The position numbers and the translations under genes were made by a program. Positions 49,055-58,523 of a stretch of DNA of 64,000 nt are shown piece after piece. Within the stretch, counting starts at the first letter, position 1; every line of letters begins with the position of its first letter. Where the stretch lies: positions 1 through 64,000 of the forward strand of contig JAJPJV010000023.1 of NCBI GenBank assembly GCA_021324045.1. Direction: 5' to 3'. The DNA comes from Actinomycetota bacterium. Its GTDB lineage: Bacteria; Actinomycetota; Acidimicrobiia; Acidimicrobiales; RAAP-2. The notes under the pieces are model-generated. The model ran no database searches, was not told the DNA's origin, and saw only the letters and a list, made by a program, of their open reading frames with translations.

Positions 49055-49337
49055 ATGCGGCGTCCTCCAGAATGGATGCAGACCGCAGGGATGAGGAACC
49101 CCCCCTCCCATTCCGAAGCGGCATTAGTGAAGGGATCGCTAGCCCCCCCGGCGATCCCTTCACTCGCGTTCGGGCCCGTGGAAGTCTGCCACTTGGTGGC
49201 CGAGACCTAGTCCGGCACCCGTCCTGTTCCGGGCTCGTATCCTCGGCCCTGAGATGGCCGGTTCGAAGCGAACGCAACAGGGTCCGCGGGGCCTGCGCGC
49301 CGGCGCGGGCTGGGGATTTCGATTCGCCCGGAGGCCG

Positions 49338-50711
49338 ATGTCCTCACCGGAGGGTCTCGGAGCGCCTTCACCTGCTGCGTCGTGGCGCCTGGGGCTCGCC
49401 GTACGGGCCGTGCGCGTGATCAACCGCGGAGTTCGCCTCCTGCGGTTGGGGAGCGGAACGGTCGCTGGAGGACGAGTCGGGCTGGCCATCGCCCCAGGCC
49501 TGCTTAGGAGCTTGTTGGCCGGACGGACGACTGCCCTGGTCAGCGGGACGAACGGGAAGACCACGACGACTCGCTTGCTCGCCGTCGCGCTGGGGGCGGG
49601 GTCGGGAGCTGGCTCGACGGAGGTCGCTGGACCCGGAGCGACCGCGGTGGTGACGAACGCGACCGGATCGAACATGCCCGCTGGTCACGTTGCCGCGCTT
49701 GCCGACGCCGCGCCCGGGGCCATGGCCGTGCTCGAGGTGGATGAGGGGTATCTGCCCGAGCTGGTGGCAACGGCGCGGCCGGCGGTCGTCGTGCTGCTCA
49801 ATTTGTCACGGGACCAGCTCGACCGCACGAACGAGGTGCGGATGACCGCGAACCGATGGAGGGCAGCGCTCGCGGGATCGCCGGCGACGGTAGTGGCCAA
49901 TGCCGACGATCCCCTCGTGGTCTGGGCCGCCGGGGGTGCTCAGCGGTGCGTCTGGGTCGCAGCAGGGCTTCGTTGGCGCTTCGATGCCGTCGGATGCCCC
50001 GCCTGCGAGGGCCGAATTCGCTTCTGCGATGGTTGGGGATGCGACTGCGGGTACCGGCGCCCGGAGCCCGCCGTCGCCGTTGAGGACAGCGGTGGGGGCG
50101 TCGTCGCTGCCTTTGCAGACGGGCGTCGCCTTCCAGTGGAGCTCCGGATCCCCGGCCGCTTCAATCAAGCCAACGCCGTGCTGGCGGCGGTCGCGGCCGA
50201 GGCGTTGGGCGTCAGAGCGGCAGTGGGCCTTCGAGCGATGCAATCGGTCGATGCGATCGCCGGCAGGTTCGCCGTCCACTCGATTGCTGGGGCGCAGGCG
50301 AGGCTTTTGCTTGCGAAGAACCCTGCCGGGTGGGCGGAGCTCCTCGACATCGTGGGTCCCAGCCGACAACCGGTGGTCGTGGGGATCAACGCCCGCGTCG
50401 CCGACGGAAGGGATCCGTCTTGGCTCTGGGACGTCCCCTTCGAAGCACTGCGAGGGCGCCGAGTCGTCGCCACCGGCGAGCGCTGCCTCGATCTGTCGGT
50501 TCGGCTGCGTTATGCCGAGGTGGATCATGACATCGTTCGGGATCCCCGGCACGCGATCGCACGGGCTGCCGGCTTCACCGGGGTAGCCGATCCGTCGGTG
50601 GCGTTGAACCGGGGCGCAGATGGCGCGACGGATGTTGGCGCCGTCGAGGTGAACGCAAAGGTCGAGTTCATCGGGAACTACACGGCCTTTCACGATCTTC
50701 TGGGACGTTGA
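49338..50711 (+). CDS. murT: lipid II isoglutaminyl synthase, MurT subunit
   Basis: MurT with GatD amidates the D-Glu of lipid II. The protein (457 residues from ATG 49338) has the Mur-ligase P-loop LVSGTNGKTTTTRLLA, the NLSRDQLDRTNEV segment, and the four-Cys zinc ribbon CPACEGRIRFCDGWGCDCGY that sets MurT apart from other Mur ligases, then the C-terminal VEVNAKVEFIGNYTAFHDL. ATG 49338 has GGAGG four bases upstream; ATG 49254 is an alternative. gatD begins two bases after its stop. Confidence 0.93.
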   Translation: MSSPEGLGAPSPAASWRLGLAVRAVRVINRGVRLLRLGSGTVAGGRVGLAIAPGLLRSLLAGRTTALVSGTNGKTTTTRLLAVALGAGSGAGSTEVAGPGATAVVTNATGSNMPAGHVAALADAAPGAMAVLEVDEGYLPELVATARPAVVVLLNLSRDQLDRTNEVRMTANRWRAALAGSPATVVANADDPLVVWAAGGAQRCVWVAAGLRWRFDAVGCPACEGRIRFCDGWGCDCGYRRPEPAVAVEDSGGGVVAAFADGRRLPVELRIPGRFNQANAVLAAVAAEALGVRAAVGLRAMQSVDAIAGRFAVHSIAGAQARLLLAKNPAGWAELLDIVGPSRQPVVVGINARVADGRDPSWLWDVPFEALRGRRVVATGERCLDLSVRLRYAEVDHDIVRDPRHAIARAAGFTGVADPSVALNRGADGATDVGAVEVNAKVEFIGNYTAFHDLLGR

Positions 50712-50712
50712 C

Positions 50713-51453
50713 GTGGCGCCGCTCAGGGTGATCGTGGTCTATCCCGAGTTGCTCGGAACCTACGGCGACGGCGGGAACGGCGTGGTGCTGGCGAAGCGCG
50801 CGTCATGGCGCGGGATCGACACGACCTTGATCGAAGCGACGGCCGACCAGCGTCTTCCTGAAGGCGACCTCTACTGCTTGGGCGGAGGTGAGGATGCCCC
50901 TCAGACCGAGGCGGCTGAGATCCTGGCGAGCGACGGCATGCTCGGACGATCGGTTGCCAATGGTGCGGTCGTGCTGGCGGTCTGCGCGGGGTACCAGATC
51001 ATCGGCAGGACCTTCACCGATGCTCACGGCGTTGCCCACCCCGGCCTTGGGCTGCTCGACGTCGAGACCAAAAGGGGCGCAGGGCGCAGGGCTGTTGGCG
51101 AGTTGGTCGCCGAGCCGATCGGGGCGGGCCTCGACATCCCCACGCTCAGCGGATTCGAGAACCATGCTGGCCTGAGCGTCGTGGGTCACGGCGCGCAACC
51201 GCTGGGGCGCGTGCGAGTCGGCGTCGGCAACGGGGATGGAACCGAAGGCGCGTGGTCGGGGCGAGTCGTCGGCACGTACTGCCACGGTCCTGTGCTGGCG
51301 CGCAATCCGGCGCTTGCGGATCTTTTGCTCGGATGGGCGTTGGGGGTCGACACGCCCCTGGCGCCACTCGGGGATCATCGCGAGGAGCTCCTGCGCGCCG
51401 AGCGCCTCCGAGCGGCATCCCGGTTCCGTTCCTGGCGATTCCGCTCGCACTGA
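50713..51453 (+). CDS. gatD: lipid II isoglutaminyl synthase, GatD glutaminase subunit
   Basis: A 246-residue CobB/CobQ-like glutamine amidotransferase that supplies ammonia to MurT. VIVVYPELLGTYGDGGNGVVL is the GatD N terminus, LAVCAGYQIIGRTF contains the nucleophilic Cys, GFENHAGLS and GTYCHGPVLARNP the catalytic His. GTG at 50713 follows the murT TGA by one base. Length is normal. Confidence 0.95.
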   Translation: MAPLRVIVVYPELLGTYGDGGNGVVLAKRASWRGIDTTLIEATADQRLPEGDLYCLGGGEDAPQTEAAEILASDGMLGRSVANGAVVLAVCAGYQIIGRTFTDAHGVAHPGLGLLDVETKRGAGRRAVGELVAEPIGAGLDIPTLSGFENHAGLSVVGHGAQPLGRVRVGVGNGDGTEGAWSGRVVGTYCHGPVLARNPALADLLLGWALGVDTPLAPLGDHREELLRAERLRAASRFRSWRFRSH

Positions 51454-51538: not shown

Positions 51539-52474
51539 TCACGACACGGGCCAGTTGCCCCCCCGGGATGGCGAGCGCCGTGGTGTCGCATCCCGTGCCC
51601 AGGCTCTTCGCCACGGGGAGACGTCAGGTCCACGCAGGGCGGTCATGGCCGCATCAGCACCCGCTCGTCGGGCCCCCCACCAGTCGGATCGGACTTCTTC
51701 GGCGAGCTGTGCGACTGCACGTTCGATCCGTGCCGCGAAGTGTCGCGCGTCCTCGCCCTCCTCGAGGCGCAGTGGAGGCCCGAAGAGCACGCTCGTCGGG
51801 GAGCGCCGAAGGCCGCGATGGCGCATTTCGCTGCCCGAACCACCGGCGGGGCGGTCGTCACGGAGGCTCTTGGGGAGCACGCGGAACATGCCGTGGATGT
51901 AGACAGGGACAACGGGGCGCTTGGTTCGGTGGGCGAGGTATGCGGCCCCGCCGCGGAACGGCTGCGCCCAACCATCGGCAGTGCGCCCGCCCTCGGGGAA
52001 GATGATGAGGTTCCAGCCCTCCTCGATGATGCGCGCCGCGTCGTCGCCGGATCGGCGGTTCACTCGGTTCCGGTCGATGGGGATCGCCGCGAGGGTGAGC
52101 GACCACCACAGTGCCTTCCAGGTGCGATCGAAGAAATAGTCCGACGCCGCGCCCACGACGCTTTTGTGGCGAAATCGAGCGGGAAGGGCATGGAGCAGCA
52201 GGGGCGTGTCGAGGTGACTGGCGTGATTGGCAGCGAAGATCACCGGTGCCTCGAGGTGCTCGAGATACTCGACTCCCCTTGTCGTCGTCGCAGTGACGAG
52301 CCTGATCGCCGGGCGCGTCACGTTGTCGAGGAGCAGCGCACGGGCCAGGCGCGCCGGGTAGCGACGGGACCAGCCGTGATCGAACGCGAGCCCGACCCGG
52401 CGCTTTGGAGCCGGGCGCTCGACGTTCGCCGGCCATGTCGGCCGCGCCAAGGGAAAGTCGAGGCCGCGCTTCAT
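51539..52474 (-). CDS. 1-acylglycerol-3-phosphate acyltransferase-like (PlsC) protein
   Basis: A 311-residue acyltransferase. Block I NHASHLDTPLLLHAL has NHxxxxD, block II-III WNLIIFPEGGRTADGW has the FPEG(T) motif, and RPVVPVYIHGMFRVLP is block IV. A N-terminal extension of about 70 residues precedes block I. It acylates lysophospholipid-like or other alcohol acceptors. ATG 52474 has an in-frame GTG one codon upstream. It is the last gene of the operon from 57863, 42 bases after the LarA-like stop. Converges with gatD. Confidence 0.88.
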   Translation of the reverse strand: MKRGLDFPLARPTWPANVERPAPKRRVGLAFDHGWSRRYPARLARALLLDNVTRPAIRLVTATTTRGVEYLEHLEAPVIFAANHASHLDTPLLLHALPARFRHKSVVGAASDYFFDRTWKALWWSLTLAAIPIDRNRVNRRSGDDAARIIEEGWNLIIFPEGGRTADGWAQPFRGGAAYLAHRTKRPVVPVYIHGMFRVLPKSLRDDRPAGGSGSEMRHRGLRRSPTSVLFGPPLRLEEGEDARHFAARIERAVAQLAEEVRSDWWGARRAGADAAMTALRGPDVSPWRRAWARDATPRRSPSRGGNWPVS

Positions 52475-52516
52475 CACGTGCGCCTTCCCTCACGTCGGCC
52501 CATCGTTCGGAGCAGC

Positions 52517-54106
52517 TCAGCTGACATCGGCCATGAGGAGCGGCGGTGCGTGCAGGTGGGTGATGGTGGGAGACGGGCCGACGACATCGGTCGCCATCTC
52601 GAGCGCGTCCTGGAGCGTGGACGCCGGGGAGAAGCCCATGCGACGGACGGCGCTCGGGTTACCACCGAGCACGATCACGCGCCCGAGGTGCTCGAGTGCA
52701 TGCGCGCACCAGTACCACATGTAGAAGGGGTGCACGCCGTGGTAGGCGTGCCCAGTGCGATAGAGATGGACGTACCAGGGGTCGGTGGCAAATGACTCCT
52801 CGTAGACCTTGTGCATCTCGATCGGGTCCGTGGTCTGCGTGAGCACCTGCTCGTAGAAGTCGATGTAGCTCGGGTGATGTCCTGGGTGGAACTCGGGTCG
52901 CGTGGGATGGCGAAGGATGAGGACGCCACCCTCGCGCACCAGTGGTTTCCCTCGGTAGAGGTTGAAGAAGTACCCCAGACCGAGGCAGGCGACCAGGATC
53001 GGGTTCATGATCGAGTTGACGTTGTAGGGGCAGATGTAGGGCAAGCCCATGGTGAGGACATCGGTTTGTCCCTCGACGGCGACGCCCTGCTGGCGCCAGA
53101 CGCTGGCGATCGCTCGCTCGTGGACGGCCTCGACCTCGCCCGCCTGGACGGACAGCATCGCTTGAGGTGCACGGATTGCGTGGAAGATCTGGCGCGCTAG
53201 ACGCGCTGGCATCCGGTCGAGCGCGGCAGCAGTTGCGGCATAGGTCGCGCGGTCGCGAAGGGTCCATTCCCACTCTCGTCGCTGCAGGAAACCGAACTGC
53301 GCGGGGAAGGTGTCGGTATTGAGCGTGGTCTCGATCTGAAAGACGCGAATCCCGCTCTCAGCGATCAACCGACCCATTCGCCAGTTCGAGGAGTGCAGTT
53401 CCGACGCGGGCGCATCCATGAACGATCGGCTGTGGCGCATCGTGTGCGGATTGTGGTGGTGGCGAAGGCTCCGGTAGCTGGCGAGACCAGTGGCGATGCT
53501 CTTGTGACCGCCATCCATGGTCACGAGCGTGATGTTGACGTAGACCACCAGGTCGCTCTCGGCCGCGCGCCGATTGATCTCGACGTCCTCCCCTTGTTCG
53601 GTCCGACCGAGGTGGACGAGGCCTTCGGGATCCTCGGCATCGTGCTGGGTCAGCAATCCGTGCGGGGCGAAGGCATCGTAGATGCGGTCACCAAGCGCGT
53701 GTCGGAGCTCCGGCTCGGTCATCCGCCGATGGAGCGCGAGCGCTGCAATGAGCACGACGTCGTCAACCCCGGCCTCGGCAGCCAACTCAAGCACCTGCTC
53801 GATCACGAGCTGGCGGACATCGGGCGATCGCATCGGGGGCAGCGGCAGCGAGACATCGTCGAAGCAAATGGTGAGGCGCATGCCAGGCCGCAGCAGCGCC
53901 GAGAGCGGCTCCATGTCGCCGACGGGGTGCTCGAGGGCGTGCCGGATCGCAGCGATCGGATCAGCGAGCGGGGCCAGCGGTTCCGGCGCGTAGACCACGC
54001 GCGTCCCCTCGGGGAGGCGCTCGAGTCGGAATCCCTCTCCGTTCCAGAACAACAGGGGTGGTGTCGAGCCGTCGACCTCCATGACGAGGCCGGGTCGCGG
54101 GGTCAT
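52517..54106 (-). CDS. LarA-like (lactate racemase domain, DUF2088) protein
   Basis: A 529-residue protein of the LarA superfamily, enzymes that use a nickel-pincer nucleotide for 2-hydroxy-acid racemisation or epimerisation. The N-terminal half contains LTICFDDVSLPLPPM, a conserved acidic loop; DGGHKSIATGLASYRSLRHHH contains the His/Lys cluster; FHPGHHPSYIDFYEQVL follows later. It is about 100 residues longer than classical LarA (about 420). AAGGAGG precedes ATG 54106. It overlaps the dehydrogenase gene by 4 bases. No larB/C/E cofactor genes are seen in the window. Confidence 0.78.
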   Translation of the reverse strand: MTPRPGLVMEVDGSTPPLLFWNGEGFRLERLPEGTRVVYAPEPLAPLADPIAAIRHALEHPVGDMEPLSALLRPGMRLTICFDDVSLPLPPMRSPDVRQLVIEQVLELAAEAGVDDVVLIAALALHRRMTEPELRHALGDRIYDAFAPHGLLTQHDAEDPEGLVHLGRTEQGEDVEINRRAAESDLVVYVNITLVTMDGGHKSIATGLASYRSLRHHHNPHTMRHSRSFMDAPASELHSSNWRMGRLIAESGIRVFQIETTLNTDTFPAQFGFLQRREWEWTLRDRATYAATAAALDRMPARLARQIFHAIRAPQAMLSVQAGEVEAVHERAIASVWRQQGVAVEGQTDVLTMGLPYICPYNVNSIMNPILVACLGLGYFFNLYRGKPLVREGGVLILRHPTRPEFHPGHHPSYIDFYEQVLTQTTDPIEMHKVYEESFATDPWYVHLYRTGHAYHGVHPFYMWYWCAHALEHLGRVIVLGGNPSAVRRMGFSPASTLQDALEMATDVVGPSPTITHLHAPPLLMADVS

Positions 54107-55368
54107 TGCCTTCCTCCTTGCCGGTTCGGGGCTCCTCGGAGGTCGAAGGTGATCTTGATCGCCCCGCGGCGTCCTGCAGCCCCGGCGTGGGCGATCGCCT
54201 CCTCGAAGCGGTCGATCGGGTATGTGGCGGAGACCAGGCGCCCTGCCCGGCACCGTGCCGCCACCTCGAAGGCCAGGTCGAACGCGTGACGCCCGCCGGG
54301 TTCGATGCCATAGGCATAGGACCCGACCAGAGCGATCTCGCGGTGCCACAGAGGGGCTAGGTCCAAGTGCACCCGCCCCGGCATCCCCACGAGGACGAGC
54401 CGCCCGCGCGGACGGGTCATCGCCAGGGAGGCTTCGATCGATCCGGCGGAGCCGACGCAGTCGAACACGATGTCGGCGCCGCTACTCAAGCGCGAACCAA
54501 CGGATCCTCGAAGCGATGGGCCCCCGATCACCTTCGAGCCACAGTGACGCCGAATCGCACGGGCGAGTTGATCCTCGGGAAAGACCGCGGTGGCACCGAG
54601 CTCCTCGGCGAAGTGGCGTTGGTGGGCGTAGCGTCCACCAACGAGCGTGGCGCGCGGAGCGGGGATGTAGCCATCGGCGCTCAGGGTGCTGATCGCAGCG
54701 ACGGTGGCAAGACCAAGGGTGCCTGCACCGACGATGCCCACCAGATCGTCCTCGCGGAGACCCGCCGACATGACGGCGTGAATGGCACAGGCGAGCGGCT
54801 CCACGGTGACCGCGTCGTTGTCGCTCAGGTGATCGGGGACCGCATGGAGTTGGCTGCTGTGTGCCGCGATCCCCGCTGTCGACCAACCGCCGCCGACATC
54901 TGCGCAGTACCCCGTTTGCAGTCCGGGACGGAGATGACCGAAGGCGACGCGCTCGCAGGCTCCGGTATTGCCCTGCGCGCAGGCGCTGCAGGGGGGATCG
55001 ATCCCTCGCGCGGCACAGGCGAGCACTGGCTCGAGCACGACACGCGTGCCGGCCTCCAGCGAGGAGCCCATAGCGGAGCGTGCGGGACCCTCGAGCGTGC
55101 CGACCACCTCGTGACCAGGTACGAAGGGAAAGCTCACCAGCTCCTCGAAGTAGCGGGAGCTCTGCCCGTCGATCGTCGCCAGGTCGGAGCCGCAGATCCC
55201 CGACAAGAGTGGTCGGACGTGCACCCATCCTTCTCCGGGCAGCTCCGGCGGTTCGACGTCGGCCAGTCTGAGTGGGCCGATTCCCGCAGCGCGGCCGGAT
55301 CCCAGCCTCGAGACCGCTCGCGCCGCCAAGAAGCGCGCAACGTTGCGCTCGAAGACGAGGGCCTTCAT
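54103..55368 (-). CDS. zinc-dependent alcohol dehydrogenase
   Basis: A 421-residue MDR dehydrogenase, longer than AdhA because of an insertion after the first zinc ligands. SGICGSDLATIDGQSSRYF holds the catalytic Cys, FPFVPGHEVVGTL the GHE, and CAARGIDPPCSACAQGNTGAC the structural-zinc cysteines. VGIVGAGTLGLATVAAI is the NAD motif. It overlaps the reductase (55365-55368) and LarA-like (54103-54106) genes by ATGA, so the three are co-translated. Confidence 0.9.
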   Translation of the reverse strand: MKALVFERNVARFLAARAVSRLGSGRAAGIGPLRLADVEPPELPGEGWVHVRPLLSGICGSDLATIDGQSSRYFEELVSFPFVPGHEVVGTLEGPARSAMGSSLEAGTRVVLEPVLACAARGIDPPCSACAQGNTGACERVAFGHLRPGLQTGYCADVGGGWSTAGIAAHSSQLHAVPDHLSDNDAVTVEPLACAIHAVMSAGLREDDLVGIVGAGTLGLATVAAISTLSADGYIPAPRATLVGGRYAHQRHFAEELGATAVFPEDQLARAIRRHCGSKVIGGPSLRGSVGSRLSSGADIVFDCVGSAGSIEASLAMTRPRGRLVLVGMPGRVHLDLAPLWHREIALVGSYAYGIEPGGRHAFDLAFEVAARCRAGRLVSATYPIDRFEEAIAHAGAAGRRGAIKITFDLRGAPNRQGGRQ

Positions 55369-57863
55369 TGCCGGACCTCGCTGCGAACCGGGCGTGGGTC
55401 GAAGGGACCGAGGGGGAGCGGCCGGTCAGCGCCACCAGGCGCCTTCGACCAGTACTCGACGTGCCAGCCGCGCCGACGGGCGAGTGCCGCCAGACGGGAA
55501 TCGGGGTTCACGGCGACCGGGTAGCCCACGGCTTCGAGCATGGCGAGATCGCTCGTGGAGTCGCCGTAGGCGACGGATTCGGCCAAGGACAGCCCGTGAT
55601 CGCGCGCGTAGCGTTGTAGCATCGCGGCGCGGGCTTCGCCGGTCGGGGGGAGCTCCTCGAGCTGTCCGGTGAAGTACCCGTTGTGGCGCCCGAGGCGAGC
55701 ACTCACCACGTCGTCGAACAGCGGCACCAGGGGGGCGACGATCACGTCGAGTGCACCGGTGATGAGCAGGGTTCGGTGGCCAAGGCTGCGATGACGGCGG
55801 ACGCGGGCAAGCCCTTCGGGGAACATCCGAGTGATCAGGAAGCGGTGGAACAGCTCCCAGGCATCGGCTTCGACCGTTGCGACTGGCGCCCCCTCGTAAC
55901 GCCGGTAGAAGCTCCGGAGGAAGTCGCCGCGATCTCGGCGGTCCAGTGCCAGCCATCGCGGCGCCCCCGCCAGCAGCTGCCCGACGAATCGGATGCGCCG
56001 GTCGAAGGGGAGATGGCGGCTGGCGAGCCATGAGTAGGAGTCGACGACGTTCGAGGACAAAAGGGTGTGCTCGAGGTCGAAGACCGCCAGGTGGCGATCG
56101 GGCGAGAGAATTGCCCGGCGCGCTCGCTCGGCTCGGCTGATCCCGGCTGGGCGACCCGGCGTCGTCTTCACTCGGGCGCGCGCGACGACCGAGGGCAGAT
56201 GGATCTCCGACACGTAGCGCTCCCAATCGATGGCCGCTGGATCGAAGCAGAACCGTTCCTGTTCTTCCGACGACATCCGCTGCCAGAGCTCGAGCAAGCG
56301 GTCGACCCGATATCGCGCCTCGGTCTCGGTGTACGCACCGTAGAGCTCGACGTAGCTCAAGGCACGCTGAGCGAGCCCTTGGCGGTCCTCGAGCGTGGCG
56401 GCCCAGTTCGCGACGCGCTTGGCGCGGCCGGGGAAGGCCGCAAGCAGCCGCTCTCCGGCACGCATGAGCTGAGTGGCCCGTTGGAGCTGCTGTTGGACGC
56501 GCCCGCGTCCGGGCAGCGACCACTTCGGCACGCTGATCGGTTGCCCCCGGTCGTCGTAGAGGGGATGGCGTGAGAACCAGTCGTAGACCAGCTCGTGCAT
56601 CTGCCCGTACCGCAGCGGCCTGCGGACACTCGACGCGACGTGGTAGACGGCGGGCGGGCTGGTCGCTCCGGCTGCGGCGATCGCAAGGATCGCAGAGACC
56701 ACGAGGTCCACAGGGATGACGTCGATCACCCCCTCGGGGACGCCGGGGAACTCCCGGAGCAAGCCCCGTGCGTAGGAGATGATGATGGGCTCAGCCATGC
56801 GGAACCCGCGGATCCAACCCGGGAACGGTTCTGCGAGGGCCGATTCGATGATGGAGGGACGGACGATGGTGATAGGGATCTGGTTCCCTGCATCGCCCTC
56901 CGTTGTGTTGGCCGCGTTGGCAGATCGCCCTCCATGCAAGCGGTTTCGGCCGTGGGCCGAAGCTCCAGCAGAGGGGGCTGAGTGCCCGAACTGGGCGACC
57001 AGGGCAATCTCGCCCAGTGCCTTGGTGTAGGCGTAGGTGTCGGGCCACCCGAGGGCCTTGGCGCGGGTGAGCCCGGCTTCGACGAGCGACTGGCTGACCC
57101 AGTCTTCTCGGAGGCGTTCTGCCCTCGTCGCGAGGAGATGGCTGCCAGCCGCGCCCTGCTCGGCCCGAGCGCGTTCGATGAGCTCCCTGAGCCGCTGCGG
57201 CTGGCGTGACTCGAGCTCGAGTTCGGCGCGCAGCTTTCGGGCGAAGTCCACCTCTCCTTGCCAGTCGACCGGGGGGACCAGCGGGTTCTCGGTGAGGAGC
57301 TGCTCGTTCGCTTCCCCTTGGTGCGTGCCGGCGACGTAGGCGGTCGAGACGGCGATGAGGTGCGGCCGTCGAGACCCTGGCCCATCGGTGGTCCATGCCC
57401 GCTGAATGGCGTCGGCAACACGAGACGGCCCCAGCAGGTTGACCTCGACTGCTTGGTCGAGAGGCGCATCGAAGCTCACGGTGGCGGCCGAATGGACGAC
57501 CACGTCGCAGCTCCGTAGGGTCTGCAGCCCAGCCTCGTTCAGGCCGAGCGCGTCCTCGCTGACGTCACCGGCGACCGTGGTCAGACGGCTGGCGATGGTC
57601 TCCTCGAAGGAGTCCCCAAGGAGGCGCCGCAACGGGTCGAAGCAGTCGTTGCGGACGATCTCGCGCAGCGCTCGCTCGTGTGCACTCGCCCGACGGCCGG
57701 GGCGCACCAGCGCGACGACCTCTGCGTCGGGGATCGAGCGGAGGAGCCGTTCGATGAGCGCGGTCCCCAAGAAGCCTGTTCCCCCGGTGACGAAGAATCG
57801 CTTCGCGCGCAGCCTCTCGCGGATCGACAGCCGGCGTTCAGCCACGCCGACAATGTCTACCAT
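55365..57863 (-). CDS. thioester-reductase (male-sterility SDR) fused to HAD-IB phosphatase-like domain
   Basis: An 832-residue fusion. Residues about 20-420 are an NAD(P)-binding reductase of the fatty-acyl-CoA reductase type: FVTGGTGFLGTALIERLL, VAGDVSEDALGL, VVVHSAATVSFDAPLDQAVEVN, and the YAYTKALGE active-site Tyr/Lys. Residues about 600-800 are a SerB-like HAD-IB domain (FDLEHTLLSSNVV, LLITGALDV, SVAYGDSTSDLAMLEAVG). Motif I reads DLE, not DxD. Similar fusions occur in mycobacterial lipid clusters. ATG 57863 lies inside the operator; GTG 57845 is an alternative start. Confidence 0.83.
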   Translation of the reverse strand: MVDIVGVAERRLSIRERLRAKRFFVTGGTGFLGTALIERLLRSIPDAEVVALVRPGRRASAHERALREIVRNDCFDPLRRLLGDSFEETIASRLTTVAGDVSEDALGLNEAGLQTLRSCDVVVHSAATVSFDAPLDQAVEVNLLGPSRVADAIQRAWTTDGPGSRRPHLIAVSTAYVAGTHQGEANEQLLTENPLVPPVDWQGEVDFARKLRAELELESRQPQRLRELIERARAEQGAAGSHLLATRAERLREDWVSQSLVEAGLTRAKALGWPDTYAYTKALGEIALVAQFGHSAPSAGASAHGRNRLHGGRSANAANTTEGDAGNQIPITIVRPSIIESALAEPFPGWIRGFRMAEPIIISYARGLLREFPGVPEGVIDVIPVDLVVSAILAIAAAGATSPPAVYHVASSVRRPLRYGQMHELVYDWFSRHPLYDDRGQPISVPKWSLPGRGRVQQQLQRATQLMRAGERLLAAFPGRAKRVANWAATLEDRQGLAQRALSYVELYGAYTETEARYRVDRLLELWQRMSSEEQERFCFDPAAIDWERYVSEIHLPSVVARARVKTTPGRPAGISRAERARRAILSPDRHLAVFDLEHTLLSSNVVDSYSWLASRHLPFDRRIRFVGQLLAGAPRWLALDRRDRGDFLRSFYRRYEGAPVATVEADAWELFHRFLITRMFPEGLARVRRHRSLGHRTLLITGALDVIVAPLVPLFDDVVSARLGRHNGYFTGQLEELPPTGEARAAMLQRYARDHGLSLAESVAYGDSTSDLAMLEAVGYPVAVNPDSRLAALARRRGWHVEYWSKAPGGADRPLPLGPFDPRPVRSEVRQ

Positions 57864-57893
57864 TCGGTAGAGACGCTGTCTACCATTTGGTAG
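57857..57893. promoter_or_regulatory. tandem palindromic operator of the TetR regulator
   Basis: Two copies of CTACC-ATTY-GGTAG (57857-57870 with ATTC, 57880-57893 with ATTT) stand 23 bases apart, centre to centre, exactly between the divergent starts at 57863 and 57894. A half-site, CATTTGGTAGTC, recurs inside the regulator gene near 57939. This is the expected position of a TetR operator; binding would block both promoters. Confidence 0.75.
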
Positions 57894-58523
57894 GTGGCGA
57901 CCGACACCCGGGAGCGGATCCTCGAGGCGGCAACGACGTCATTTGGTAGTCGGGGGTACGACGCCACCTCGCTCGATGCCCTGGCGGCGTCTCTCCAGAT
58001 CCGCAAGCAGACGATCCTCTACTGGTTCCCGAGCAAAGAGGTCCTGCTCGAAGCGGTCATCGCCCGAGCGGCGCTGGAGCTGTCGACGACAATGCAAGCT
58101 GCCCTCGACGGTGCCGGAGTGGGTTGGGCCCGGGTGGAAGCCGTGGTGAAGTCGGTGTTTCGCCTGGCCTCCAGGCGCCCTGAGCTGCTCGGCCTCGTCC
58201 GCGAGGTCACCCGTCGTGGGCCGCAGGCCACTAGCCAGCTGATCAGCGCCATGGGCCCGTTGGTGGAACGAGCTTCGGAGTTCCTCCGCGCCGAGATGGA
58301 CGCTGGTCGGATGCGACGTCACGACCCGCGCTTGCTGCTGCTCGCGATCTATTCGACCGTCATCGGAATGGTCACAGAAGTCGAAGTGCTTCGGGCGTTG
58401 GGGGAAGAACCGACGCCTCGATCCCTCGTCCGGCGCCGCGCCGATGTCCTCGCCTTGCTTCGCTCGGCGCTCTTGGTGCCGGACGAGGAAGCTCGTGCTC
58501 AGCGTGAGGAACGCGTGGGCTGA
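57894..58523 (+). CDS. TetR-family repressor of the divergent lipid-like operon
   Basis: A 209-residue TetR regulator. RERILEAATTSFGSRGYDATSLDALAASL and IRKQTILYWFPSKEVLLEAV form the HTH. The start is GTG 57894, one base after the second operator palindrome and without a ribosome site, suggesting a leaderless mRNA. Its 3' end overlaps the convergent membrane protein gene by 25 bases. Confidence 0.88.
   Translation: MATDTRERILEAATTSFGSRGYDATSLDALAASLQIRKQTILYWFPSKEVLLEAVIARAALELSTTMQAALDGAGVGWARVEAVVKSVFRLASRRPELLGLVREVTRRGPQATSQLISAMGPLVERASEFLRAEMDAGRMRRHDPRLLLLAIYSTVIGMVTEVEVLRALGEEPTPRSLVRRRADVLALLRSALLVPDEEARAQREERVG

Follow-up and report, generated by a model that had tools for sequence, protein, structure and literature searches.

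A conserved operon of Actinomycetota joins a LarA-like nickel-enzyme gene to lipid genes and may serve ether-lipid synthesis

LarA of Lactiplantibacillus plantarum has a lysine that carries the nickel-pincer nucleotide (NPN) cofactor, a nickel-binding histidine and a first catalytic histidine (His108), as well as a second catalytic histidine (His174) and an arginine (Arg75) that contacts both the cofactor phosphate and the substrate carboxylate (residues R75, H108 and H174 are numbered as in the cited LarA papers). Structures of single-histidine LarA-like enzymes are available from Streptococcus plurextorum and Blautia (9q3k and 9q3j), and the portions of PMC12611868 available to us describe groups 14 and 15 as lacking His174. 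According to the main text of PMC7583248, LarAH14 of Frankia was purified and none of seven racemase or epimerase activities was seen; that text gives neither a substrate nor a lipid link for it. The NCBIfam family LarAH14/15/16 (NF052592), which has been named without a known substrate, refers on our own reading to the groups of PMC7583248. Here we analyse a 64,000-nucleotide stretch from an Actinomycetota bacterium of the order Acidimicrobiales (contig JAJPJV010000023.1, hereafter the window), in which a member of this family is encoded in an operon with three other genes. The four genes form a conserved unit across several lineages of the Actinomycetota. We tentatively propose that the operon, which recurs in Acidimicrobiia, Rubrobacteraceae and others, could well build 1-O-alkyl glycerophospholipids and that the nickel enzyme would act on the carbinol of glycerol.

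AGPS is the enzyme that forms the ether bond of ether lipids, and Ger/PlsA represents the other known bacterial route to such bonds. The AGPS pathway would use a fatty alcohol from a fatty acyl-CoA reductase (FAR) together with acyl-glycerone phosphate; a Pfam search found no AGPS gene in the operon of the window. The elb genes of Myxococcus xanthus, as described in the parts of PMC9131029 that we could draw on, bring together a FAR domain, a HAD protein, NAD-dependent epimerase/dehydratase proteins and an acyltransferase domain, a combination that resembles the operon in the window. The two systems differ in that those parts describe no LarA-like gene, and in that the acyl-CoA ligase and acyl carrier domains of ElbD are absent from the Pfam domains of the operon.

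According to the list of open reading frames (ORFs) of the window, all four genes lie on the minus strand and jointly span 51539-57863. They are given here in order of transcription, with two codons of the LarA-like gene that are discussed below:

55365..57863, minus strand: gene 1, fatty acyl-CoA reductase-HAD fusion, 832 aa, with NAD_binding_4, Sterile/FAR_C and HAD-IB phosphatase-like domains
54103..55368, minus strand: Zn-dependent medium-chain dehydrogenase, 421 aa, with an ATGA overlap with either neighbour
52517..54106, minus strand: LarA-like protein, 529 aa, start ATG at 54106, NCBIfam NF052592 (LarAH14/15/16)
53729..53731, minus strand: His126 codon of the LarA-like protein, equivalent of the first catalytic histidine (LarA His108; LarA_Sp His115)
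53501..53503, minus strand: Lys202 codon of the LarA-like protein, equivalent of the NPN-carrying lysine (LarA_Sp Lys195)
51539..52477, minus strand: PlsC-like acyltransferase, last gene, 312 aa, PF01553 at 74.8 bits

This layout agrees with the first-pass annotation of the window, which had placed four genes on one strand in this interval and reported ATGA overlaps for three of them: two such overlaps join genes 1-3, and 39 bases separate the LarA-like gene from the PlsC gene. Domain matches support the Zn dehydrogenase and the PlsC-like acyltransferase that it had named, and its estimate of a LarA-like protein about 100 residues longer than LarA fits the 529 aa read from the ATG at 54106. 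The mechanical ORF of this gene starts at 54349, and CAAGGAGGAAGGCA directly precedes the ATG at 54106. The latter is likely to be the true start, because the family model begins there and the ribosome-binding site supports this ATG; the 610-aa product of the mechanical start was ruled out on the same two grounds.

The LarA-like protein scores 895.3 bits against the NF052592 profile (cut-off 740) over profile positions 2-519 of 520 and is, therefore, a full-length member, while the lactate racemase profile gives it 74.6 bits against a cut-off of 460. Its AlphaFold model (pLDDT, the predicted local distance difference test score, 88.3) is nearest to 9q3k (Z 40.4, root-mean-square deviation 2.4 over 453 residues); 9q3j follows at Z 36.8, and 5huq compares at Z 30.6 (root-mean-square deviation 3.1 over 405 residues). 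The two single-histidine LarA-like structures come first in the ranking, and lactate and malate racemases come after them. By this model, the protein has the LarA fold. With the Streptococcus plurextorum and Blautia enzymes it shares the closest fold, one catalytic histidine, the lysine and the nickel histidine; however, it is only 25-27% identical to them, and they sit in a sugar-gene context rather than among lipid genes.

Residue equivalences were read from a sequence alignment to LarA_Sp, without coordinate superposition. Relative to LarA_Sp, the protein keeps Asp84 (nearly invariant), His126, Lys202, His217/218, Tyr361, His456 and His459. Alignments of 14 and 33 sequences show His126 to be invariant, and likewise K202, H217 and H218; the GG.K motif of Lys202 recurs in 108/108 homologues and the HRR motif of His126 in 107/108. 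The protein, thus, has both the lysine and the histidine needed to hold NPN and nickel, and it may bind NPN. The first-pass annotation had proposed a structural model as a check of its LarA assignment, and the fold and the anchoring residues uphold it.

The remainder of the LarA active site has changed. At the second catalytic site (LarA His174) the loop reads YVNITLVTMDGGHK ahead of the lysine, with no histidine at the aligned place, and an invariant Asn191 sits within this loop. LarA Arg75 aligns with Leu/Ile87, which is Leu87 in the window protein and also occupies the position of LarA_Sp Lys76; the position of LarA_Sp His306 is Pro360. Only His126 remains of the two histidines of a LarA-type 2-hydroxy-acid racemase, and in the sequence alignment the arginine of such an enzyme is absent. 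Because the second acid/base histidine and the carboxylate-binding arginine are missing, plain hydroxy-acid racemization is unlikely, and the stereochemical inversion step suggested by the first-pass annotation loses its footing.

Conservation of the gene order was assessed in loci with sufficient flank. The Acidimicrobiia-type loci are the best 80 of at least 586 from the named genome collection; their titles read Acidimicrobiales or Acidimicrobiaceae, or Actinomycetes, Actinobacteria or Actinomycetota, mostly for metagenome-assembled genomes, with two titled Acidobacteriota and with Acidithrix ferrooxidans as a named strain. All four genes occurred in the same order and on the same strand in each of the 57 loci of this set that could be judged. 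The order was also kept within the window's own order (6/6 judged, seven fetched) and outside both that order and the Rubrobacteraceae (12/12 judged, 14 fetched), the phylum loci from outside the named collection having been chosen for carrying the LarA-like protein. In total, none of the 75 judged loci from outside Rubrobacter departs from this arrangement. Chance does not account for such an order, and the result answers the search for conserved order across Actinomycetota that had been proposed at the outset. In Rubrobacteraceae, the first three genes were found in 5/5 loci, with PlsC absent next door.

The lipid context is not common to all LarA-like proteins; we rejected that idea because the neighbours are missing, without exception, from the 13 loci that carry distant relatives. 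In two of these loci (L135, L139), the LarA-like protein belongs to a subfamily of approximately 41-45% identity and has an adjoining CoA-transferase family III gene. A search of plasmids returned only ordinary, partial LarA matches; on the Rubrobacter indicoceani plasmid NZ_CP031116.1 (59765-65614, L188), an annotated larA is followed by MaoC, MmgE/PrpD and acyl-CoA dehydrogenase genes. Nor is the operon invariable, as three of the genomes behind five further loci, inspected for odd coordinates or missing larC, depart from the pattern. Two of these genomes (G263 and G065) are discussed below, and in G119 a stretch of 6.5 kb separates the LarA-like gene from the dehydrogenase. The G220 locus ends at a contig end, and the fifth locus is the other half of G065. 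The neighbour maps that we inspected include wrong ORFs, and de novo clustering of neighbours was blurred by antisense ORFs.

Across a survey of 296 Actinomycetota genomes, the LarA-like family scored over cut-off in 72, all of which (72/72) also carry the reductase, counted at an E value of 1e-30 or better and present in 80 genomes; these searches score first-look candidates only, and a missing match is no proof of absence. Eight of the 80 reductase genomes have no full LarA-like match. Four of these (G095, G138, G141 and G287) have partial matches, and four (G040, G064, G259 and G290) have none, partial ones included, G040 having only a distant relative.

The genes for cofactor synthesis tell a related story. 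No lar cofactor genes were found in the window, searched for LarC and LarE, as the first-pass annotation had stated for larB/C/E. The larB, larC and larE genes of the same genome lie at approximately 48-53.6 kb of contig C49; all three genes for which a search had been advised are, thus, present, and 'elsewhere', as the source of the cofactor, means no more than a different contig of this genome. The operon's LarA-like protein is the sole Lar_N protein found in this genome, so the cofactor made there has one visible client. In other loci lar genes adjoin the operon itself (larC and larE in L119; larB, larC and larE in L121; larC in L127). Phylum-wide, LarC occurs in 193/296 genomes, comprising 63 of the 72 LarA-like carriers and 130 genomes without the LarA-like protein, so that the link at this level is moderate. 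In the window's class, LarC was found in 15/17 genomes with the operon protein and in 0/10 without it, although these genomes are related and, therefore, not independent. LarE scores over cut-off in two of the nine carriers that lack LarC and in none of the other seven. Four sampled relatives from the window's family (G166, G210, G230 and G241) gave no match for the LarA-like protein, the reductase or LarC, which suggests joint loss or gain.

PlsY starts phospholipid synthesis and belongs to the glycerol-3-phosphate acyltransferase family. In Rubrobacteraceae, it takes a place beside the operon: the gene row in G076 is PlsY, reductase-HAD, dehydrogenase and LarA-like, and PlsY lies directly upstream of the reductase in 5/5 other first-fetched loci of the family (L132, L133, L134, L148 and L149), as it does in L196 and L197. 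G076 is Rubrobacter indicoceani or nearly so, with 6,647/6,647 bases identical to the plasmid. The LarA-like protein is over cut-off in 30/39 Rubrobacteraceae genomes. Counting by eye, we found that 24 of these 30 carriers have their best-scoring PlsY within about 10 kb upstream of the LarA-like gene, with contig and strand shared; 14 of the 24 have no other PlsY match. Among the other six, G216, G296 and G300 have no PlsY match, and in G065, G184 and G301 PlsY is on another contig. Given the role of PlsY, this linkage ties the operon to membrane lipids. The first-pass annotation had suggested an unusual lipid of the ether, hydroxy or wax-like kind; the lipid context holds, wax or hydroxy lipids are possible, and the PlsC/PlsY link points to glycerophospholipids.

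Sinninghe Damsté et al. (2023) reportedly found abundant 1-O-alkyl glycerol lipids in five Rubrobacter species, and are said to have proposed an operon for making 1-O-alkyl glycerol phosphate that is similar to one carried by other aerobic bacteria; should it be the operon described here, the lipid link would in part have been published before. A title cited in PMC11150832 has the Rubrobacterales dominated by mixed ether/ester lipids. Our literature search of open-licence PMC, by titles and the starts of abstracts, found no paper linking LarA-like genes to lipid synthesis, and none combining 'lactate racemase' with 'ether lipid'. When the AGPS-like protein of the window's genome was used as the query, one clear relative was found in 39 Rubrobacteraceae genomes (G173, 322 bits), the other best matches scoring no more than 145 bits at 29-36% identity. 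With AGPS nearly absent from Rubrobacteraceae and the role of the LarA-like protein unexplained, a missing ether-bond step and an enzyme meet in one operon.

The product of gene 1 has the Pfam domains NAD_binding_4 and Sterile, and its closest solved structure is 7eoz, 'Fatty acyl-CoA reductase' (E 1.6e-66). The first-pass annotation had called it a thioester-reductase/HAD fusion; the HAD fusion stands, and the thioester reductase was rejected in favour of a fatty acyl-CoA reductase, since TIGR01746 gives 79.5 bits against a cut-off of 213. The protein has the cofactor and Tyr/Lys motifs of such reductases along with NAD_binding_4 and FAR_C, and its homologues commonly carry TG.TGFLG and Y..TK-type motifs. 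The nearest solved relatives of the dehydrogenase are ketose reductase and the idonate, xylitol and sorbitol dehydrogenases, and its GICGSD and GHE motifs are each present in 104/107 homologous ORFs. Nearly all of 99 homologues of the PlsC-like protein have NHxSHxD and FPEG/YPEG. Reductase, HAD, dehydrogenase, Lar_N and acyltransferase domains account for all the Pfam domains of the four products.

A regulator gene diverges from the operon, and putative operators lie at the junction of the two:

57894..58523, plus strand: TetR-family regulator, divergent, 209 aa, PF00440
57857..57870, no strand: operator-like palindrome CTACCATTCGGTAG
57880..57893, no strand: operator-like palindrome CTACCATTTGGTAG

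The 30-base gap between the TetR and reductase genes, together with the reductase start, carries these two CTACC-N4-GGTAG palindromes. TACC-N4-GGTA was found in 44/45 loci with a divergent TetR gene (the gap and 60 bases on each side), against a background of 0.03 per kb. Of 52 Acidimicrobiia-type loci whose sequence extends 5.5 kb or more past the LarA-like gene on the upstream side, 33 have a divergent TetR gene; none was found in the other 19, and we rejected the notion that the regulator always accompanies the operon. The palindromes (57857-57893) overlap or abut both start codons, and no ribosome-binding site was seen ahead of the reductase; leaderless mRNAs would fit this arrangement. 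At the far end, a MurT/GatD pair of the lipid II amidation family (window 49254-51453) converges on the operon; among the best 80 Acidimicrobiia-type loci, GatD was found in 35 and MurT in 33.

Our data are consistent with a model in which these genes assemble 1-O-alkyl glycerophospholipids. Judging from their families, the reductase would turn fatty acyl-CoA into a fatty aldehyde or alcohol, PlsC (PlsY in Rubrobacter) would place acyl chains onto glycerol phosphate, and the dehydrogenase, of the sorbitol/ketose-reductase type, would switch a polyol carbon between its secondary-alcohol and ketone forms. The novel element would be the LarA-like enzyme, whose NPN may abstract a hydride from the C2 carbinol of an intermediate of the glycerol-phosphate type; for an NPN enzyme that has lost its recognition of carboxylates, this carbinol would be a natural source of hydride. 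With one acid/base histidine, a simple return of the hydride to the other face would not be expected; the enzyme could open a ketone stage resembling dihydroxyacetone phosphate and so assist in attaching or processing the alkyl chain, the sequence of steps being left free. The operon would often be under the control of the divergent TetR regulator. A bolder variant, which we consider unlikely though worth naming, would have the LarA-like protein form the ether bond, as an NPN 'hidden redox' synthase yielding 1-O-alkyl glycerol phosphate: C2 would be oxidized, the fatty alcohol or aldehyde from the reductase would join C1, and the hydride would be returned or passed on, dispensing with both the flavin chemistry of AGPS and the ester reduction of the Ger type.

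Several observations weigh against the ether-lipid proposal. The window's genome encodes an AGPS-like FAD protein on another contig (C23:142912-144474; L180:679-2241), the best solved relatives of which are the alkyl-dihydroxyacetonephosphate synthases 4bby and 2uuu, so ether lipids of this organism could arise by a known route. No lipid genes were recognized by eye from ORF starts beside this gene. AGPS-like proteins in this genome (L180) and in two others (L186 and L185) of 12 led us to reject the idea that AGPS is absent from all carriers; PF02913 gave 34 matches, of which four are unclassified (two of G226 and one each of G075 and G080). The parts of PMC11868695 available to us report AGPS and some Ger homologues (4/146 metagenome-assembled genomes) in Actinobacteriota. 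Seven of the 72 LarA-like genomes have neither LarC nor LarE over cut-off (G263, G294 and G106 are 98, 96 and 95% complete, the remaining four 81-91%), and five of the seven, whose loci were inspected, keep the cofactor residues; in-house NPN may, therefore, not be universal. In G263, a genome of the window's order, the locus (L199, G263:C32:82000-96000) has TetR, reductase-HAD, LarA-like and PlsC genes with no dehydrogenase between, which suggests a natural reduced version of the operon. G065 is split: PlsY and the reductase share a contig, and the LarA-like gene lies within a different one. In the HAD domain, motif I is DxE (Glu) in 89/103 homologues and motif IV is ADS, not GDS, in 86/103; these atypical motifs make a plain phosphatase role uncertain. 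Lastly, our literature search found no lipid report for Acidimicrobiia.

Three other pathways would use the same genes. The LarA-like protein could isomerize a 2-hydroxy fatty acid or aldehyde from which the reductase makes a diol for PlsC to acylate. The reductase and acyltransferase fit such a hydroxy-lipid or 1,2-diol pathway, and LarA homologues with reported activities act on 2-hydroxy acids in the parts of PMC7583248 and PMC11770544 available to us; however, the replacement of LarA R75 by Leu/Ile87, the missing second catalytic histidine and the presence in Rubrobacter of PlsY, a glycerol-3-phosphate acyltransferase, make this rather improbable. Alternatively, the LarA-like protein and the polyol-type dehydrogenase might remodel a sugar or polyol headgroup, to which the reductase and acyltransferase attach lipid. 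The affinity of the dehydrogenase to polyol dehydrogenases speaks for this, as does the carbohydrate role proposed, in the portions of PMC12611868 available to us, for the nearest solved single-histidine relatives, yet no recurring sugar gene was seen by eye in the neighbour maps, the ORFs of which were not searched against families, and LarA_Sp His306 has become Pro360; we regard a polar-head pathway as quite unlikely.

It would be equally surprising if the operon served storage or catabolism, with fatty alcohols and wax-type neutral lipids as its business and the LarA-like protein in a minor part or one independent of NPN. Catabolic genes are often controlled by TetR regulators, and the seven genomes without larC and larE would be readily accommodated; the phylum-wide pairing with the reductase, the invariant cofactor residues and the PlsY linkage would not. 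We retain the synthesis of 1-O-alkyl glycerophospholipids as our working proposal, at the tentative strength given above.

Overall, the fold, the cofactor family, the family name and the missing histidine were known, and the chemistry and the pathway proposed here are probably new. The operon offers a functional handle on a family of nickel enzymes of which a purified and assayed member gave no substrate. In Rubrobacter, which has almost no AGPS, it points to a concrete candidate for the synthesis of ether lipids. As culturable strains exist among the carriers, both the nickel-enzyme and the ether-lipid questions are approachable. If the proposal is true, the chemistry of NPN would extend from small hydroxy acids to the lipids of the membrane.

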